A stretch of 54,189 bases of DNA from Elusimicrobiota bacterium. Its GTDB lineage: Bacteria; Elusimicrobiota; Elusimicrobia; Elusimicrobiales; UBA9959. This document shows positions 30,270-40,517 of the stretch, in pieces. The position numbers were made by a program, and so were the translations under genes. Each line of letters begins with the position of its first letter. The first letter of the stretch is position 1. The DNA lies in NCBI GenBank assembly GCA_012517285.1, contig JAAYVG010000032.1:1-54189 (forward strand). The letters run 5' to 3'. Under the pieces are notes generated by a model. That model saw only the letters and a program-made list of their open reading frames with translations. It ran no database searches and was not told the DNA's origin.

Positions 30270-33200
30270 ATGCATAACAAGAACGAAAATACTTACGGAT
30301 TAGCAGGGCGTATAGCCTCATCATTTGTGAATTCACGGCTCACGCCTATACTCATAATAACCTTTATACTTCTTGGGGTATTCTCTACTTTAAAAATTCC
30401 TAGGGAGGAAGAACCGCAAATAAACGTGCCGATGTTTGACATAATGGTTCCTTTTTATGGTGCTTCACCTAAAGAAATAGAAAAGCACTTGATGGAAGTT
30501 GGTGAAAGAAAGCTTTGGGAAATACCTGGAGTAGAATACATTTACTCTACTGCTCAACCTAATTTTGCTATGTTTACGGTGCAATTCAAGGTGGGGACAT
30601 CTCCGGAAGAGGCTGCCAACCTTATCTATACAAAAACCTTTGACAACAAAGATTTTATGCCACGTGGTGCAGGAGAACCTCTTATAAAGTTTAGGTCCAT
30701 AGATGATGTCCCAATCTTGGCCTTAACATTCTGGGGAGAGGGTAAGGATGATTACTATCTGCGACGGGTTGCTGCGCGGGTACAGACCGAAATAAATGCT
30801 GTGCAAAACGTCTCTGAGACTAAAATAATAGGCGGACATAAAAGGCAGTTTATAGTGCACTTTGAACCAGAACTATTGGCTATTCATAGGCTTACTCCTC
30901 AATCTTTAGCTGGGATAATAAAGATGTCTAATGCTCGACTTCCTTCTGGTCATTACAATAAGGGGGAATTAAAGTTTCTTGCAGAAACTGATGCCTTTAT
31001 TCGCAGTGCCGACGATCTTAAAAACATAATTGTTGGTGTTTACAACGGGCATCCAGTAAAGCTTTCTGATGTAGCTAAAGTTAATGATGGATCGGACGAA
31101 GAAGAACTTTCAGTTAATATGTTTCATGGAGCAGCTTCTTCTGTGAAAGATTCTGGCCCCAAGCCGGCTGTAACACTATCTGTTGCCAAACGTCGCGGAG
31201 CCAATGCTACTGAAGTCTCGCGTGCTGTTCTTTCTAAAATAAATAAGATGAAAGGTCGGGATATTCCTGATGGAGTCAATGTGACTGTCACCCGCAACTA
31301 CGGAGAGACTGCGAAGGCGAAATCTGACGAGCTCATATATCACATGCTTCTGGCCACACTTTCTGTTACTCTGCTTATATTTTTAACCCTTGGGATCAGG
31401 GAGGCGGCTGTAGTCCTTGTGGCTATACCGGTGACACTGGCACTTACTATGATAATTTATTATCTATACGGATATACACTCAATCGCATAACACTCTTTG
31501 CCCTAATTTTTTCCATAGGCATACTGGTAGATGACGCGATAGTGGTTGTGGAAAACATAAACAGGCATTGCTTGATTAACTATAAAAATTCTTTTTTTAG
31601 GAACATTCTCAACGCGGTCAACGAAGTTGGAAATCCAACAATACTGGCTACTTGGACTGTTATAGCTTCCATACTGCCGATGGCTTTTGTTAGCGGTATG
31701 ATGGGACCATACATGCGACCCATACCTATAGGTGCTTCGGTAGCCATGCTCTTTTCTCTTTTTGTTGCTTTTGCCTTTACTCCTTATCTTTATTTTGTTA
31801 TCGTAAAACGCTGGCCTAAGAAACATTGCGAGAATGTTAATGAAAGTAGAATTGACAGATTATATCGCAAGATAATGAAGAAGCTCATTTATAATACCGC
31901 AGCAGGTAAAAAGTTCATTATCTTTACTGCAGTACTGTTAATTGCTGTTATCGCAATGCTGTCTTTTAGGTTAGTAATATTCAAAACCTTGCCCTTCGAT
32001 AATAAGAATGAGTTCCAAGTTGTAATAAACATGCCTGAAAGTTCATCGCTGAAAAGAACTCAGGAGGCATTGAAAAAAATGGCGGAATACCTTATTTCAG
32101 TGCCAGAAGTTCGTGATTTGCAGACCTATGCAGGGACCAGCGCTCCTTATAATTTCAACGGGTTAGTACGCCATTACTTTCTTCGCAGTGAATCTTACCA
32201 AGGTGACATACAGGTCAATCTGTCTGATAAGTCCAAAAGAAAGCGGCAGAGCCATGAGATAGCTGCTTCGGTGCGGGGGCCGCTAAAAGAAATAGCCGAC
32301 TCTTACAAAGCGCGTTTGCAGATAGCAGAAGTTCCGCCCGGTCCACCAGTGATGGCGACGTTAATGATCGAAGTCTATGATCCTAACCCTGAGAATCAGC
32401 GACAGTTGGCTGAAGAAATAAAAAATCTTTTGAAAAAGACTAAGGGGATAGTAGATGTGGACTCCTACATCCCCGATCCTCAGCCCATAATACGGTTTCT
32501 TGTCGATAGACAGAAAGCCACTTTGAACGGAATAGCAGCCTCCGATATAGTTCAGACAGCAGCTATTTCACTTTCCGGTTACAACATAGACTCGGCTCAC
32601 GTCGAGGATGAAAACGAACCTGTGGATATACGACTGAGACTTTCCCCTGAAAAACGTAGTAATTTTTCAACTCTAAAAGAGATAAAATTTTTCTCTCCAA
32701 ACGGAACAGCCATTCCTATGGCTAGTCTTGTCCGACAGGAGATCGGCATAGAAAATCAGCCAGTGTATCATAAGAATCTCCAGAGAGTGATATATGTTAC
32801 AGCCGACATAGCGGGGGGAAGCGAAAGCCCTGTATATGCTGTCATGGACCTCAAAAAGGAAATAGAATCGCTTTCTAAAACACGCGGCTTGGAAATAAAG
32901 CAATATTTTATTCACCAGCCCTACAGTTCATCTGAAACAGCAATAAAATGGGATGGGGAATGGCACATAACTTATGAGGTTTTTAGAGACCTAGGGCTTG
33001 CGTTTATTATGGTATTGATACTGATATATATACTTTTAGTAGCATGGTTTGAGGATTTTCTTACACCTTTCATAATAATGGCGGCTATACCTATGGCGTT
33101 GATAGGAATAATACCAGCCCACTGGGGTATGGGAGCATTTTTTACAGCCACATCTATGATCGGCTTTATCGCTTCGGCAGGCATAGTGGTTAGGAATTCT

Positions 33201-33497
33201 ATAATACTTGTAGATTTCATAAATATGAAGGTACGTGAGGGCATGGAACTAAAGGAAGCTGTCATAGAAGCAGGAGTAGTACGTTTCAGGCCTATGCTTT
33301 TAACAGCTCTTGCAGTGATAGTTGGTGCTGGTGTTATACTGTTTGACCCAATATTCCAAGGGCTGGCTATATCTCTTATTTCTGGACAAATAGCGGCTAC
33401 GCTTCTGTCTAGGATGGCGGTGCCGGTACTTTATTATCTGGCCTTTAAAGGAAAAGAACACAAGCTCCGACTGACTGCGGTTGAAAAGGGAGAATAA
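30270..33497 (+). CDS. RND efflux transporter, permease subunit (AcrB-like)
   Basis: The 1075 residues fit a 12-helix RND pump: N-terminal helix (LTPILIITFILLGVFSTL), a large periplasmic loop, TM4 proton-relay aspartates in IGILVDDAIVVVENINRH, TM7 and a second loop, then the C-terminal helices with VLILIYILLVAWFEDFLTP and GIVVRNSIILVDFIN. It drives drugs or hydrophobic compounds outward using the proton gradient; substrate class is not clear from sequence. Arginine codons CGC, CGT and CGG are frequent, unlike neighbouring native genes. Operon order is TolC, RND, DUF2892, without a membrane-fusion protein. Confidence 0.93.
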   Translation: MHNKNENTYGLAGRIASSFVNSRLTPILIITFILLGVFSTLKIPREEEPQINVPMFDIMVPFYGASPKEIEKHLMEVGERKLWEIPGVEYIYSTAQPNFAMFTVQFKVGTSPEEAANLIYTKTFDNKDFMPRGAGEPLIKFRSIDDVPILALTFWGEGKDDYYLRRVAARVQTEINAVQNVSETKIIGGHKRQFIVHFEPELLAIHRLTPQSLAGIIKMSNARLPSGHYNKGELKFLAETDAFIRSADDLKNIIVGVYNGHPVKLSDVAKVNDGSDEEELSVNMFHGAASSVKDSGPKPAVTLSVAKRRGANATEVSRAVLSKINKMKGRDIPDGVNVTVTRNYGETAKAKSDELIYHMLLATLSVTLLIFLTLGIREAAVVLVAIPVTLALTMIIYYLYGYTLNRITLFALIFSIGILVDDAIVVVENINRHCLINYKNSFFRNILNAVNEVGNPTILATWTVIASILPMAFVSGMMGPYMRPIPIGASVAMLFSLFVAFAFTPYLYFVIVKRWPKKHCENVNESRIDRLYRKIMKKLIYNTAAGKKFIIFTAVLLIAVIAMLSFRLVIFKTLPFDNKNEFQVVINMPESSSLKRTQEALKKMAEYLISVPEVRDLQTYAGTSAPYNFNGLVRHYFLRSESYQGDIQVNLSDKSKRKRQSHEIAASVRGPLKEIADSYKARLQIAEVPPGPPVMATLMIEVYDPNPENQRQLAEEIKNLLKKTKGIVDVDSYIPDPQPIIRFLVDRQKATLNGIAASDIVQTAAISLSGYNIDSAHVEDENEPVDIRLRLSPEKRSNFSTLKEIKFFSPNGTAIPMASLVRQEIGIENQPVYHKNLQRVIYVTADIAGGSESPVYAVMDLKKEIESLSKTRGLEIKQYFIHQPYSSSETAIKWDGEWHITYEVFRDLGLAFIMVLILIYILLVAWFEDFLTPFIIMAAIPMALIGIIPAHWGMGAFFTATSMIGFIASAGIVVRNSIILVDFINMKVREGMELKEAVIEAGVVRFRPMLLTALAVIVGAGVILFDPIFQGLAISLISGQIAATLLSRMAVPVLYYLAFKGKEHKLRLTAVEKGE

Positions 33498-36239: not shown

Positions 36240-39200
36240 CTAAATTATCTCTATCGGAGCAAATTTAAGCATAAAAGTGTGAACCGAGCCGCTATTAAAT
36301 TTTATCTTAATCTTTGCAAACTCACCACTGCCAATTATCTCAAGTATAACTCCCTGACCAAAAACTGGGTGTATGACCCTTCTCCCAGATTTTGGCTCTG
36401 GTTTTGAAAGCGAATATCCTTCTATTACTTTTATATCATCATACTTTCTGTTCTTTGGATAAGTTACCACATTTGATTCTATTATAAACCTTGACATCAT
36501 ATTGGGATACATTTTACCAAAGATTCTTCTTGTCTGTGCCCAGCTCAAAAAGAGCTTTTTCTTTGCTCTTGTCATACCGACATACATAAGTCTTCTTTCT
36601 TCTTCCATATCATCTTCGCTTGAATCTGCTGCATTTATTGGAAAAAGTCCCTCTTCAAGCCCTGTAATAAATACCGTTTCAAACTCAAGTCCTTTGGCCA
36701 GATGAAGTGTCATAAGGGTTACAGTGTTTAGATCCTCTGAAAAGTCATCTAGATCACTCTGGAGGGATATCTCCTCCAAATATCTGTTTATTGTGGCAGG
36801 CATACCTGCTGATTCCGATTCGTCCTCAAACTGCTTTATAGCATTAACAAGTTCCTGAAGGTTTGAAAGTCTCATAAGAGCGTTTTCCTTGTCCTTTTCT
36901 GCATCTGCTTCTATCATATCCCAGTATCCTGATTTTATAAGAAGTTTCTCAAGCAGTGAGTGTGGAGGTTCGGATGCGGTTAAAGCCCTGAACTCTTTTA
37001 TAATCTCTATAAAATTTTTAACTGATGTCTTTGTGCCATCTGATAATGGCAGATCATCGAGCAAGAGTGTATCAAAAAGCGGAAGTCCTCTCGCCTTAGA
37101 AAGCTCCTGAATCTTATCAATTGTTTTATCGCCAAGCCCTCTCGCTGGTGTATTTATAATCCTTAAAAGGCTCACAGTATCAAGTGGATTTACAATAATT
37201 CTGAGGTATGCTATAGCATCCTTGATCTCTTTTCTTTCATAAAACCTTACACTGCCTATGAGTTTATATGGTATCCTATATTTTCTAAATGCCTCTTCAA
37301 AGTTTCTGCTCTGTGAGTTGGTTCTGTAAAAAACAGCTATGTTGGAGTATTTCTCGCCAGCTGCAATTTGTTTTATCTTTGAAGCTATCTGGTTTGCTTC
37401 CTCAATTTCATTTGCAACCTCTATTAGCTCAATTTTTTCTCCGTTTATATTATCTGTCCAAAGATTTTTTTCCTTTCTTTGCTTGTTGTGCTTTATAACC
37501 CTATTAGCAGCGTCAAGTATAACTGAGGTGGATCGATAGTTCTGTTCAAGTGCTATTATTTTTGCACCCTTAAAGTCTGCTTCAAACTGAAGAATATTTC
37601 TTATGTCAGCTCCTCTCCATCCATAAATCGAATTATGCACCAGAACCCCACCAGCTGAAAAATTTCTCAGATTAGGCACAGAGATATCATAAACATCTCC
37701 ATTATAATCAAAAATTTTCACTGATTTTATTCTATCTTCTTTTATCTGTCCGTTTTCCATAACAGGAACAGTCATGCCTTCGCGCAGATGTGAAGTGGGC
37801 ATAAAATAAAAAGGTTTATTGCTTGATATCTTTGCCCTTGAAACTATATCAAGCAGATCCATATCCGCTATTTTGTTTGCCAGTTTAAGCCCTTCTTCAT
37901 AAGATTTTATGGAAGTTTCTATCCTCCATGTTCCATTGTTCCCGTTTCTCACATTGAAATTTTTAAAGGCTTTAGTTTTGAGAGTGTCATCAGAAGTAAC
38001 CAGCTGTATCCTGTGATAGTGTTCACCAGAGCTTGTTTTTCGGCTATCACCAAAAACCGTGAACCAGACAAGTTTCCTGCTAAAATTTCCTCTTGTCACA
38101 GCGTAAGGCCTGTGATGCGGAAAATCAGGATTAAGCAAAAGATCTTCCATGAGTTTTTCCCCAGCCGTTACTGTGTTTATTTCTTTATAGAGTTGGTCTA
38201 TAAGTTCTTGTGTAACAGCCATTCTCCTACCGCAAACATGAAACACCATAGTAGGTATCCCGTAAGTTACTGAAAAATACTGCTCATAATATTCGGCTTC
38301 ACCGCGTGAGCGACAGGCTTTAAGTATCCAGATAGCGTCAGCTATTTCCTGATTGGTCCTGACCATTACACCGTTTATGAGAGCTTTGTCTTTTGAAGAA
38401 CGTACTCCAGAAGTAATTCCTATCCTATAACCCTTATCTTTGCGATACATCAGATAGACATAATACATATCTTTAACTGGATCCAACCTTGCGAAACATA
38501 TATGATTAGGCGTGGCTGAAAAAACCTTCCCACTTTCAGTTTTTATTTCTATCATTTTACCCGAATACTTTTTGACAAATATTTTATTTACAATAGTTGG
38601 AACGCATTCATCCCAACCAGAACCGGAAATGACTTTATCACCGTTTTTTAAATCTTTGATTTTCCTTGTCCCTCCTGGAATATCTACTGAAGTATTCGGG
38701 TGTAGGCACTGATCAGGATCTCCAACCACACATATGTTTTGATTTTTTTGAGAAAGAGTTTTTATCAGCATATACTGTGCTCTGTTTGTGTCCTGATACT
38801 CATCAACGAGTATATAATCAAAATAGTTTTGGTAGTATTCACAAAGCTCTTTATTGTTTTTAAGTATATTAACAGGCATTGATATAAGATCACCGAAATC
38901 AACTGCATTAGATTCTGCTAATTTTTTCTGATACTCAAAATAGATCTGTGCAGCCTTTATCCTTTCAGCGTTGCCGCCTATTCTTGCATTTAAAAGATAA
39001 GACTCACAATCCATCAGATCATCCTTTGCTCTTGATATGATCGAAAGATAAACTGATGCCTTATTCTTTTCCTTATCAAAACCCAACTCTTTCATAATAA
39101 GCGAGATAACCTTTTTTTGATCATCCTCATCATATATGACGAAATCCTTGTTGAGTCCTGCAGCCTTAGCATTCATCCTCAAAAACTTTACCCCAAACGA

Positions 39201-39488
39201 ATGAAATGTAGAGCACCATAATCCATAGGCATCAGGCACAAGGTCAGTAACCCTTCTCTTCATTTCACCGGCGGCCTTATTGGTAAATGTTATTGCCAAA
39301 ATCCTTGATGCAGGAATTCCGCTATGCACAAGCACTGCTAACTTTGATATAAGGGTTTTTGTCTTTCCAGTACCAGCACCTGCAATGATAAGAAGTGGTG
39401 AGTTAAAATAAATAGCAGCCTCTAACTGCCTTTCATTGAGGTTTAATCTTTTGATAAAGTCGTGATCAAAATTTATGTTTGGTTCCAC
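36240..39488 (-). CDS. pcrA: UvrD/PcrA-type ATP-dependent DNA helicase containing an intein
   Basis: The 1082-residue precursor is a superfamily 1A helicase (3'-5' unwinding in repair and replication) split by a 359-residue intein (residues 261-619); the spliced host protein would be about 723 residues, normal for PcrA/UvrD. Host motifs: Q-motif LNERQLEAAI, Walker A GAGTGKT (37-43), motif Ia ITFTNKAAGEMKRRV, Walker B YILVDEYQDTNRAQY, GDPDQ interrupted before SIYGWRGAD, LEQNYRST, VAVFYRTNSQSR-like, ARGLGDKTI, TLHLAKGLEFE and RRLMYVGMTRAKKKL. A C-terminal SH3-like region binds RNA polymerase in relatives. The start is GTG at 39488; upstream in-frame codons reach a stop quickly. Confidence 0.95.
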   Translation of the reverse strand: MEPNINFDHDFIKRLNLNERQLEAAIYFNSPLLIIAGAGTGKTKTLISKLAVLVHSGIPASRILAITFTNKAAGEMKRRVTDLVPDAYGLWCSTFHSFGVKFLRMNAKAAGLNKDFVIYDEDDQKKVISLIMKELGFDKEKNKASVYLSIISRAKDDLMDCESYLLNARIGGNAERIKAAQIYFEYQKKLAESNAVDFGDLISMPVNILKNNKELCEYYQNYFDYILVDEYQDTNRAQYMLIKTLSQKNQNICVVGDPDQCLHPNTSVDIPGGTRKIKDLKNGDKVISGSGWDECVPTIVNKIFVKKYSGKMIEIKTESGKVFSATPNHICFARLDPVKDMYYVYLMYRKDKGYRIGITSGVRSSKDKALINGVMVRTNQEIADAIWILKACRSRGEAEYYEQYFSVTYGIPTMVFHVCGRRMAVTQELIDQLYKEINTVTAGEKLMEDLLLNPDFPHHRPYAVTRGNFSRKLVWFTVFGDSRKTSSGEHYHRIQLVTSDDTLKTKAFKNFNVRNGNNGTWRIETSIKSYEEGLKLANKIADMDLLDIVSRAKISSNKPFYFMPTSHLREGMTVPVMENGQIKEDRIKSVKIFDYNGDVYDISVPNLRNFSAGGVLVHNSIYGWRGADIRNILQFEADFKGAKIIALEQNYRSTSVILDAANRVIKHNKQRKEKNLWTDNINGEKIELIEVANEIEEANQIASKIKQIAAGEKYSNIAVFYRTNSQSRNFEEAFRKYRIPYKLIGSVRFYERKEIKDAIAYLRIIVNPLDTVSLLRIINTPARGLGDKTIDKIQELSKARGLPLFDTLLLDDLPLSDGTKTSVKNFIEIIKEFRALTASEPPHSLLEKLLIKSGYWDMIEADAEKDKENALMRLSNLQELVNAIKQFEDESESAGMPATINRYLEEISLQSDLDDFSEDLNTVTLMTLHLAKGLEFETVFITGLEEGLFPINAADSSEDDMEEERRLMYVGMTRAKKKLFLSWAQTRRIFGKMYPNMMSRFIIESNVVTYPKNRKYDDIKVIEGYSLSKPEPKSGRRVIHPVFGQGVILEIIGSGEFAKIKIKFNSGSVHTFMLKFAPIEII
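37632..38708 (-). other. Intein inserted in the helicase GDPDQ/S site
   Basis: Intein residues 1-359 start with Cys (CLHPNTSVDIPGG, block A) and end VLVHN before the +1 Ser, so the Cys1, His-Asn and Ser+1 chemistry for splicing is complete. Block B is FSATPNHICF; block F is GDVYDISVPNLRNFSAGG. The central part (about 80-250) lacks LAGLIDADG and HNH motifs. It contains YYVYLMYRKDKGYRIGIT (82-99), Arg103 and GEAEYYEQYF (136-145), which resemble a GIY-YIG nuclease core with Y-to-R in the YIG. Arginine codons CGC, CGG and CGT are enriched compared with the host gene, consistent with recent acquisition. Confidence 0.92.
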
Positions 39489-39581
39489 ATAATCATTTTA
39501 CAAAAAAACTACCATATAATTGAAATAGGTCCTAAGACTCTTGCAAATATGTATGAAATACATTATAAAATAAAAGAAGAT

Positions 39582-40517
39582 ATGAGATTTATATTAACAA
39601 TTGCCTTAATGTTGAGCACTATAAGTTTAAAATCAGATGATTCTGTCGAAAAGATAGCTGGTTATGATTTTGAAAAGAGTTTTTCATCCTTTACCGATGA
39701 TATTACGGTTCCTAGTGTTTATGGGTTTAAGTTGGAAGTGTCAACTACTGCTGATGAAAATAAATATTTTAATGGTTATTTAATTAAAGCTGTTAAAGAG
39801 ATAGAAAGCAAATATCTACTTAAGGGCTATAATATCCATGCTGCCTTAACCCATGATATAAACTTTAATAATCAGGGATTTATAAAGGCATTGAAACCGC
39901 CATATACTATGTGCGTTGCAGCCCAGCTTGAGCTGATATTGACAGCTTATGATATATACTCAAAAGAAACTGGTGATTATTCCGTTTATTCTTATCTCCC
40001 AAAGTCAAGCTATGAAAATTTAGGTGCAGGGGATCTCAGAGGTCATATATGGGTTAATCATGATTTTAATTCCTATGGGACAGCTGATGCCCTTATAAAC
40101 TTTGGTATGGGTGAGAGAGTTGTGTTTGAGAAATTGAAGCCGGGAGCATTTATAAACATCAATAGGAAAAATGGTACTGGTCATGCTGTTATGTTTCTTG
40201 GTTATATAGATAAGAGTGGAAATCTTTTTTATGATTACAATTCAAATGTTATAGGTTTTAGGTATTTTTCATCACAGGGCACAAATGATGATGGTGGTTT
40301 TGATTATAGAAACGCTATATTTTCACAGTATGGATGTCCCGAGATGAATTTTAAGAGGGATTGTGACGTAATATATTCAACAGATCAGAGATATTTAAAC
40401 ACCGGTATGATGCTGCTTCCAAAGTTTTGGAAGCTTCCAAAACCTTCATGGAGTTTGAACCTTCCTCCAACAGTACTTGATGAAAAGTATTTCAATGGTG
40501 AAGTCACAGACAAATAA
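39582..40517 (+). CDS. Putative secreted cysteine-peptidase-like protein
   Basis: The start is set at the ATG at 39582, which gives a signal-like N-terminus (FILTIALMLSTISLKS); an earlier ATG at 39549 and a longer frame starting at 39462 inside the helicase region lack support. The mature part of about 290 residues has KPPYTMCVAAQLELIL with a Cys at a helix start, and KNGTGHAVMFLGYIDKSGNLFYDYNSN with a His followed by a polar strand, the order Cys, His, Asp/Asn of papain-like or NlpC/P60-like enzymes. No named family could be assigned. It is divergent from the helicase (94 bp between the starts) and is followed by an inverted-repeat element. Confidence 0.65.
   Translation: MRFILTIALMLSTISLKSDDSVEKIAGYDFEKSFSSFTDDITVPSVYGFKLEVSTTADENKYFNGYLIKAVKEIESKYLLKGYNIHAALTHDINFNNQGFIKALKPPYTMCVAAQLELILTAYDIYSKETGDYSVYSYLPKSSYENLGAGDLRGHIWVNHDFNSYGTADALINFGMGERVVFEKLKPGAFININRKNGTGHAVMFLGYIDKSGNLFYDYNSNVIGFRYFSSQGTNDDGGFDYRNAIFSQYGCPEMNFKRDCDVIYSTDQRYLNTGMMLLPKFWKLPKPSWSLNLPPTVLDEKYFNGEVTDK

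Follow-up and report, generated by a model that had tools for sequence, protein, structure and literature searches.

In the window, i. e. the complete stretch of 54,189 nucleotides of Elusimicrobiota DNA that was analysed here, an open reading frame on the reverse strand (36240-39488, (-)) encodes a UvrD/PcrA helicase, as judged from matches to the Pfam families UvrD_C (E=2.8e-86) and UvrD-helicase (E=1.3e-77). This reading frame is split in frame by an insert of 359 amino acids at exactly 37632-38708 (-): The N-extein (38709..39488, (-)), defined by the UvrD-helicase match and the junction, ends with VVGDPDQ, and the C-extein (36240..37631, (-), stop codon included), which carries the UvrD_C match, starts with SIYGWRG, placing the insertion point at VVGDPDQ^SIYGW. 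We can confirm that the insert, located at the GDPDQ^S site of the helicase, is a complete class 1 intein, and a genome search identified a single copy of such an intein in this genome. The helicase gene is adjoined by an open reading frame of 351 amino acids (39462-40517) that has no Pfam match at E<=0.001.

The splicing part of the intein is a Hint domain with an N-terminal portion (residues 1-75; 38484..38708, (-)) and a C-terminal portion (residues 299-359 with D341, H358 and N359; 37632..37814, (-)). The splicing ends had been called intact in an earlier sequence-only reading, and the residues in question are all in place: Cys1, the pair His358-Asn359, and Ser+1 following GDPDQ, to which T66 and H69 of the block B TxxH motif can be added. 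C1, H69 and N359 are invariant across 36 inteins of the family. The Pfam family Intein_splicing matches the insert with E=8.3e-14, and the NCBIfam models intein_Nterm and intein_Cterm both score above their own cut-offs. In the AlphaFold2 model of the whole intein, obtained with the 36-member alignment as input, the mean pLDDT is 93.6, and VIA-align superimposes the splicing part on Hint and intein structures with Z scores of 15-22. Since the Hint domain holds all class 1 splicing residues, the intein should excise itself and thus restore the helicase; with these residues and the predicted Hint fold it belongs to class 1, and its splicing competence is well supported by prediction. Outside the window, the same genome contains an unusual open reading frame of about 863 amino acids (G000:C29, loci L002-L004) with several tandem Hint or BIL-like domains that are set apart by KG(GG) stretches.

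Between the two halves of the Hint domain, residues 76-160 (38229..38483, (-)) form a GIY-YIG-like nuclease domain according to the predicted fold, profile matches and structure matches. The search with the whole intein was filled by Hint matches, and the insert was therefore folded separately. In the model of the whole intein, this region consists of strand 82-89, strand 93-100, helix 113-120, strand 125-132 and helix 135-149, which is the order of elements in GIY-YIG proteins, and the same order was obtained for the insert alone (pLDDT 91.1). The VIA-align matches that span residues 76-160 are GIY-YIG proteins only, with modest Z scores (4.2-5.1): UPF0213/BH0048 (Z 5.1) and the PD-T4-3 endonuclease (Z 4.5-4.6), both of which we take to be GIY-YIG proteins, as well as Slx1 (Z 4.2). 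Other matches, which merely start near model residue 76-79, cover the accessory half instead. In a library of viral structures, helicase and methylase relatives came first, followed by group I intron endonucleases and GIY-YIG proteins. Based on these models, we predict with high confidence that residues 76-160 adopt the GIY-YIG nuclease fold.

Searches of Pfam, NCBIfam, PHROGs and the PDB sequences gave no match above cut-off for the insert sequence itself, and the evidence was therefore drawn from family profiles and structure. When the core of the family was compared by hhalign with 29 GIY-YIG sequences of the same phylum, the probability was 92-93% (P 3.5-4.9e-7, 65 columns); reversed and shuffled profiles reached about 4% at most, and the best of the unrelated helicase profiles used as decoys reached 32% (P 5e-4), with decoy P values of 4e-4 or above. 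The probability was still 92% for a family subset without the close kin of the window intein. This profile evidence is independent of the structure models. Among all 24,736 Pfam models, GIY-YIG is the only one matched by the 80-residue core of the window intein (core residues 3-67 on profile positions 1-68), at 9.8 bits and thus below the curated PF01541 cut-off of 22.6 bits. Pfam GIY-YIG is matched by six of 30 family members (best E=0.0027), and every other family by one member at most. T5orf172 as the closest relative is not supported, the hhalign probability being 0.3%. The likeness to GIY-YIG nucleases proposed in the sequence-only reading has thus stood up both in the predicted fold and in the profiles.

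A comparison of 36 inteins that are 24-65% identical to the window intein revealed eight invariant positions in the insert: Y85, L86, M87, R95, G97, R117, W127 and E142. The motifs quoted previously are present, among them GEAEYYEQYF (136-145), together with YYVYLM (82-87) and GYRIGIT (93-99). Y85 (38454..38456, (-)) would be the counterpart of the GIY tyrosine and is the proposed general base. The replacement of the YIG tyrosine by arginine, already suspected for the window copy, turned out to be a property of the whole family: R95 (38424..38426, (-)) occupies this place as Arg in 36/36 inteins, and a scan in which the position was left free returned arginine at 57 of 57 places; G97 is the YIG glycine. 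For the catalytic arginine of helix 1, the earlier suggestion of Arg103 has to be given up, as this residue is kept in only 24 of the 36 members. Instead, the invariant R117 (38358..38360, (-)), which lies within the predicted helix 113-120, is the proposed counterpart of R27 of I-TevI. Four residues further, where many GIY-YIG proteins have a histidine, the family has E121 (38346..38348, (-); Glu in 33/36). Finally, E142 (38283..38285, (-); 36/36) is aligned by hhalign with the GIY-YIG glutamate and is the proposed metal-binding catalytic residue that corresponds to E75 of I-TevI. The predicted fold, the profile similarity and the putative equivalents of the GIY tyrosine, the helix-1 arginine and the helix-3 glutamate point to membership in the GIY-YIG superfamily. 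Two traits of the canonical PF01541 family are absent, i. e. the YIG tyrosine and the His/Tyr four residues past the helix-1 arginine, and we file the family as a divergent branch of the superfamily rather than as a canonical PF01541 member.

Since the YIG tyrosine and the helix-1 histidine are replaced, nuclease activity cannot be assumed. These two substitutions would argue for regarding the domain as a catalytically dead relic the fold of which is kept as a splicing aid, with mobility being a matter of the past or of ordinary recombination; moreover, many intein endonucleases decay. However, decay would not leave every one of the proposed catalytic residues unchanged across 36 diverse inteins, as is observed here. 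In addition, the YIG tyrosine is not a strict requirement in the superfamily: T5orf172 proteins have a lysine at this position in 15 of 15 fetched examples, and one T5orf172 protein is known to be an active nuclease (PMC8263062). Together with the evidence for selection and transfer described below, this makes a dead relic an unlikely, though the most serious, alternative.

The nuclease-like domain is followed by linker helices and an accessory domain (residues 161-298; 37815..38228, (-)), which in the AlphaFold2 model comprise two helices and one ferredoxin-like strand-helix-strand-strand-helix-strand unit. With a pI of 9.5 this region is basic, and it may have a role in DNA recognition. The C-terminal half of the insert could not be assigned to a known DNA-binding fold, its ferredoxin-like matches, i. 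e. BMC shell proteins and LAGLIDADG, all being weak. Short relatives of 280-300 amino acids (SPO1-like and methylase inteins) lack the accessory domain. In VMA inteins, accessory domains of unclear function have been described (PMC8966425). The accessory part also bears on the idea that the insert is a degenerate LAGLIDADG endonuclease with residues 205-292 as its remnant and a GIY-YIG likeness that arose by chance. LAGLIDADG enzymes are the usual endonucleases of inteins, and they occupy the top PDB positions when the insert is searched with Foldseek (I-LtrI, E=0.05; I-PanMI, prob 0.60). Yet these matches are weak, and the fold in question is one strand-helix-strand-strand-helix-strand unit. 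Moreover, the invariant residues of the insert all lie within 85-142 and outside of 205-292, and neither LAGLIDADG nor HNH is among the Pfam families listed for the 36 members at E<=10, in agreement with what had been read from the window sequence. We regard a LAGLIDADG origin as highly improbable.

Relatives of the intein occur in at least six bacterial phyla (Elusimicrobiota, Myxococcota, Rokubacteria, Bacillota, Chloroflexota and Cyanobacteria) and in phages, including Justusliebigvirus, SPO1, methylases of Streptococcus phages and IMG/VR contigs. A scan of IMG/VR with the single window sequence gave no match, and the scan with the family alignment gave 14 loci. The family inteins occupy several sites in UvrD-like helicases and are also present in DNA methylases: One phage helicase reading frame from IMG/VR (L059, 2185 amino acids) carries three of them at three conserved helicase motifs and L049 carries two, and the same nuclease-like insert is found in methylase inteins at the HEP^C site (L024, L025, L060) in Streptococcus phages and a Providencia plasmid. 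In 346 genomes, the domain was not found as a free-standing copy. One further candidate copy (L175) showed a weak match (E=3.9e-4) and three internal stops; after inspection of its sequence we dismissed it as a false positive.

Several observations suggest that the element is mobile. First, its presence is sporadic: The intein was found in 4 of 101 relatives and in 10 of 341 genomes of the phylum, and the exact site is uninterrupted in all 20 intein-less relatives in which it could be read. Second, presence and absence of the intein on the helicase tree need five changes, with close empty relatives for each intein-containing helicase within the family. The helicase genes of L028 and L155 are even about 95% identical in DNA, and only one of them contains the intein. 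Third, the histories of intein and helicase do not agree in two Rokubacteria pairs: For L032/L035, the dS of the intein is 0.03-0.08 as compared to 0.31 for the helicase, and the reverse is the case for L039/L040. The most plausible reading of these conflicts is that the intein was recently transferred and that alleles were replaced. Finally, close pairs give a dN/dS of about 0.05-0.11 for the nuclease core, comparable to that of the Hint domain or lower, indicating that the core is under purifying selection. Both a dN/dS of about 0.1 and the recent transfer in Rokubacteria speak against a dead relic, whereas the lack of any sign of recent transfer of the window copy would be in line with it.

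For the window copy, the trees of intein and helicase show no conflict, and recent movement is therefore not indicated; an intein tree that unites the Elusimicrobiota in one clade is not rejected (p-AU 0.27). It had been proposed that enriched CGN codons reflect a recent spread of this intein. The enrichment is real in comparison to the host gene (6 of 21 versus 1 of 37 arginine codons, p=0.007) but not to the other genes of the window (74 of 438, p=0.23), and the GC content is 0.380 versus 0.369. Thus, neither codon usage nor GC content marks the intein as foreign, and a recent arrival is not supported. A compositional outlier of the window is the gene for an AcrB-type RND efflux pump (30270-33497), in which 32 of 52 arginine codons are CGN (about 10% in other genes of the window) with a GC content of 0.417; this gene has perhaps been acquired.

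The host genes of the family, DNA-repair helicases and methylases, could also suggest that a GIY-YIG nuclease has been domesticated here for a task other than homing, e. g. the cutting of branched DNA or the regulation of the helicase. Indeed, branched DNA is cut by Slx1 and other GIY-YIG enzymes. However, the sporadic presence, the empty sister alleles and the conflicting dS values of intein and helicase are what would be expected of a selfish homing element, and domestication seems quite improbable to us. With a probability of roughly 0.75, we favor the interpretation that the intein is an active or recently active homing endonuclease that represents a divergent, intein-specific branch of the GIY-YIG superfamily. 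Cleavage by this protein would presumably proceed as in known GIY-YIG enzymes (PMC10287932; PMC3943268): Tyr85 would deprotonate water, Glu142 would hold one divalent metal, and R117 and R95 may contact the phosphate. Target recognition might fall to the basic ferredoxin-like region (161-298) and the surface of the Hint domain, the target presumably being the GDPDQ^S coding sequence of another, intein-less uvrD/pcrA allele. Repair of the break in the empty allele from the intein-bearing copy would then spread the element. On balance, we also lean towards the broader idea of an overlooked further type of homing-intein nuclease, i. e. an intein-specific GIY-YIG branch that is marked by an invariable RIG signature (Tyr replaced by Arg) and an Arg-xxx-Glu helix 1, and the members of which would be active in homing in the helicases of bacteria and phages and in phage methylases.

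If so, intein biology would gain a nuclease type, represented by a family found in at least six phyla and in many phages. The family would also be a source of new site-specific cutters and a test case for whether the second tyrosine is dispensable in a GIY-YIG enzyme, and the near-identical helicases of L028 and L155, with and without intein, are a natural pair that makes homing directly testable. In 2006, it was stated that GIY-YIG nucleases are found in group I introns, not in inteins (PMC1564403), and none of the open-access papers found by full-text search reports a GIY-YIG nuclease nested in an intein; for the open literature, calling such domains rarely reported in inteins, as the sequence-only reading did, is if anything an understatement. 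In the split intein AceL NrdHF, which is also associated with a GIY-YIG homing endonuclease, the nuclease is encoded by a separate gene between the split halves rather than nested in the intein (PMC7891396). The UvrD inteins of SPO1 (gp34.33) and Justusliebigvirus (E. coli phage JohannJBalmer/Bas62) contain the same domain and conserved residues, with the SPO1 form being shorter and devoid of the accessory domain; they are already annotated as inteins, and the annotation as shown gives no nuclease type. With the enzymes of the I-TevI and SegA type, encoded by group I introns or free-standing phage genes, the family has the three-strand core, the GIY tyrosine, the helix-1 arginine, the helix-3 glutamate and the proposed homing role in common. 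In contrast to these enzymes, the domain studied here is nested in a protein intein, has Arg and Glu in place of the YIG tyrosine and the helper histidine, and is combined with a ferredoxin-like accessory part rather than with NUMOD or zinc-finger domains. T5orf172 and MUG113 (PF10544, PF13455) belong to the same superfamily, and T5orf172 likewise has a basic residue in place of the YIG tyrosine; they differ in that their profiles do not match the intein family and that the fetched examples reside in free-standing reading frames. Finally, the LAGLIDADG/HNH homing inteins such as PI-SceI and TliVMA share the class 1 Hint domain, the nested endonuclease with an accessory domain and the proposed life cycle, but their nuclease belongs to an unrelated superfamily.
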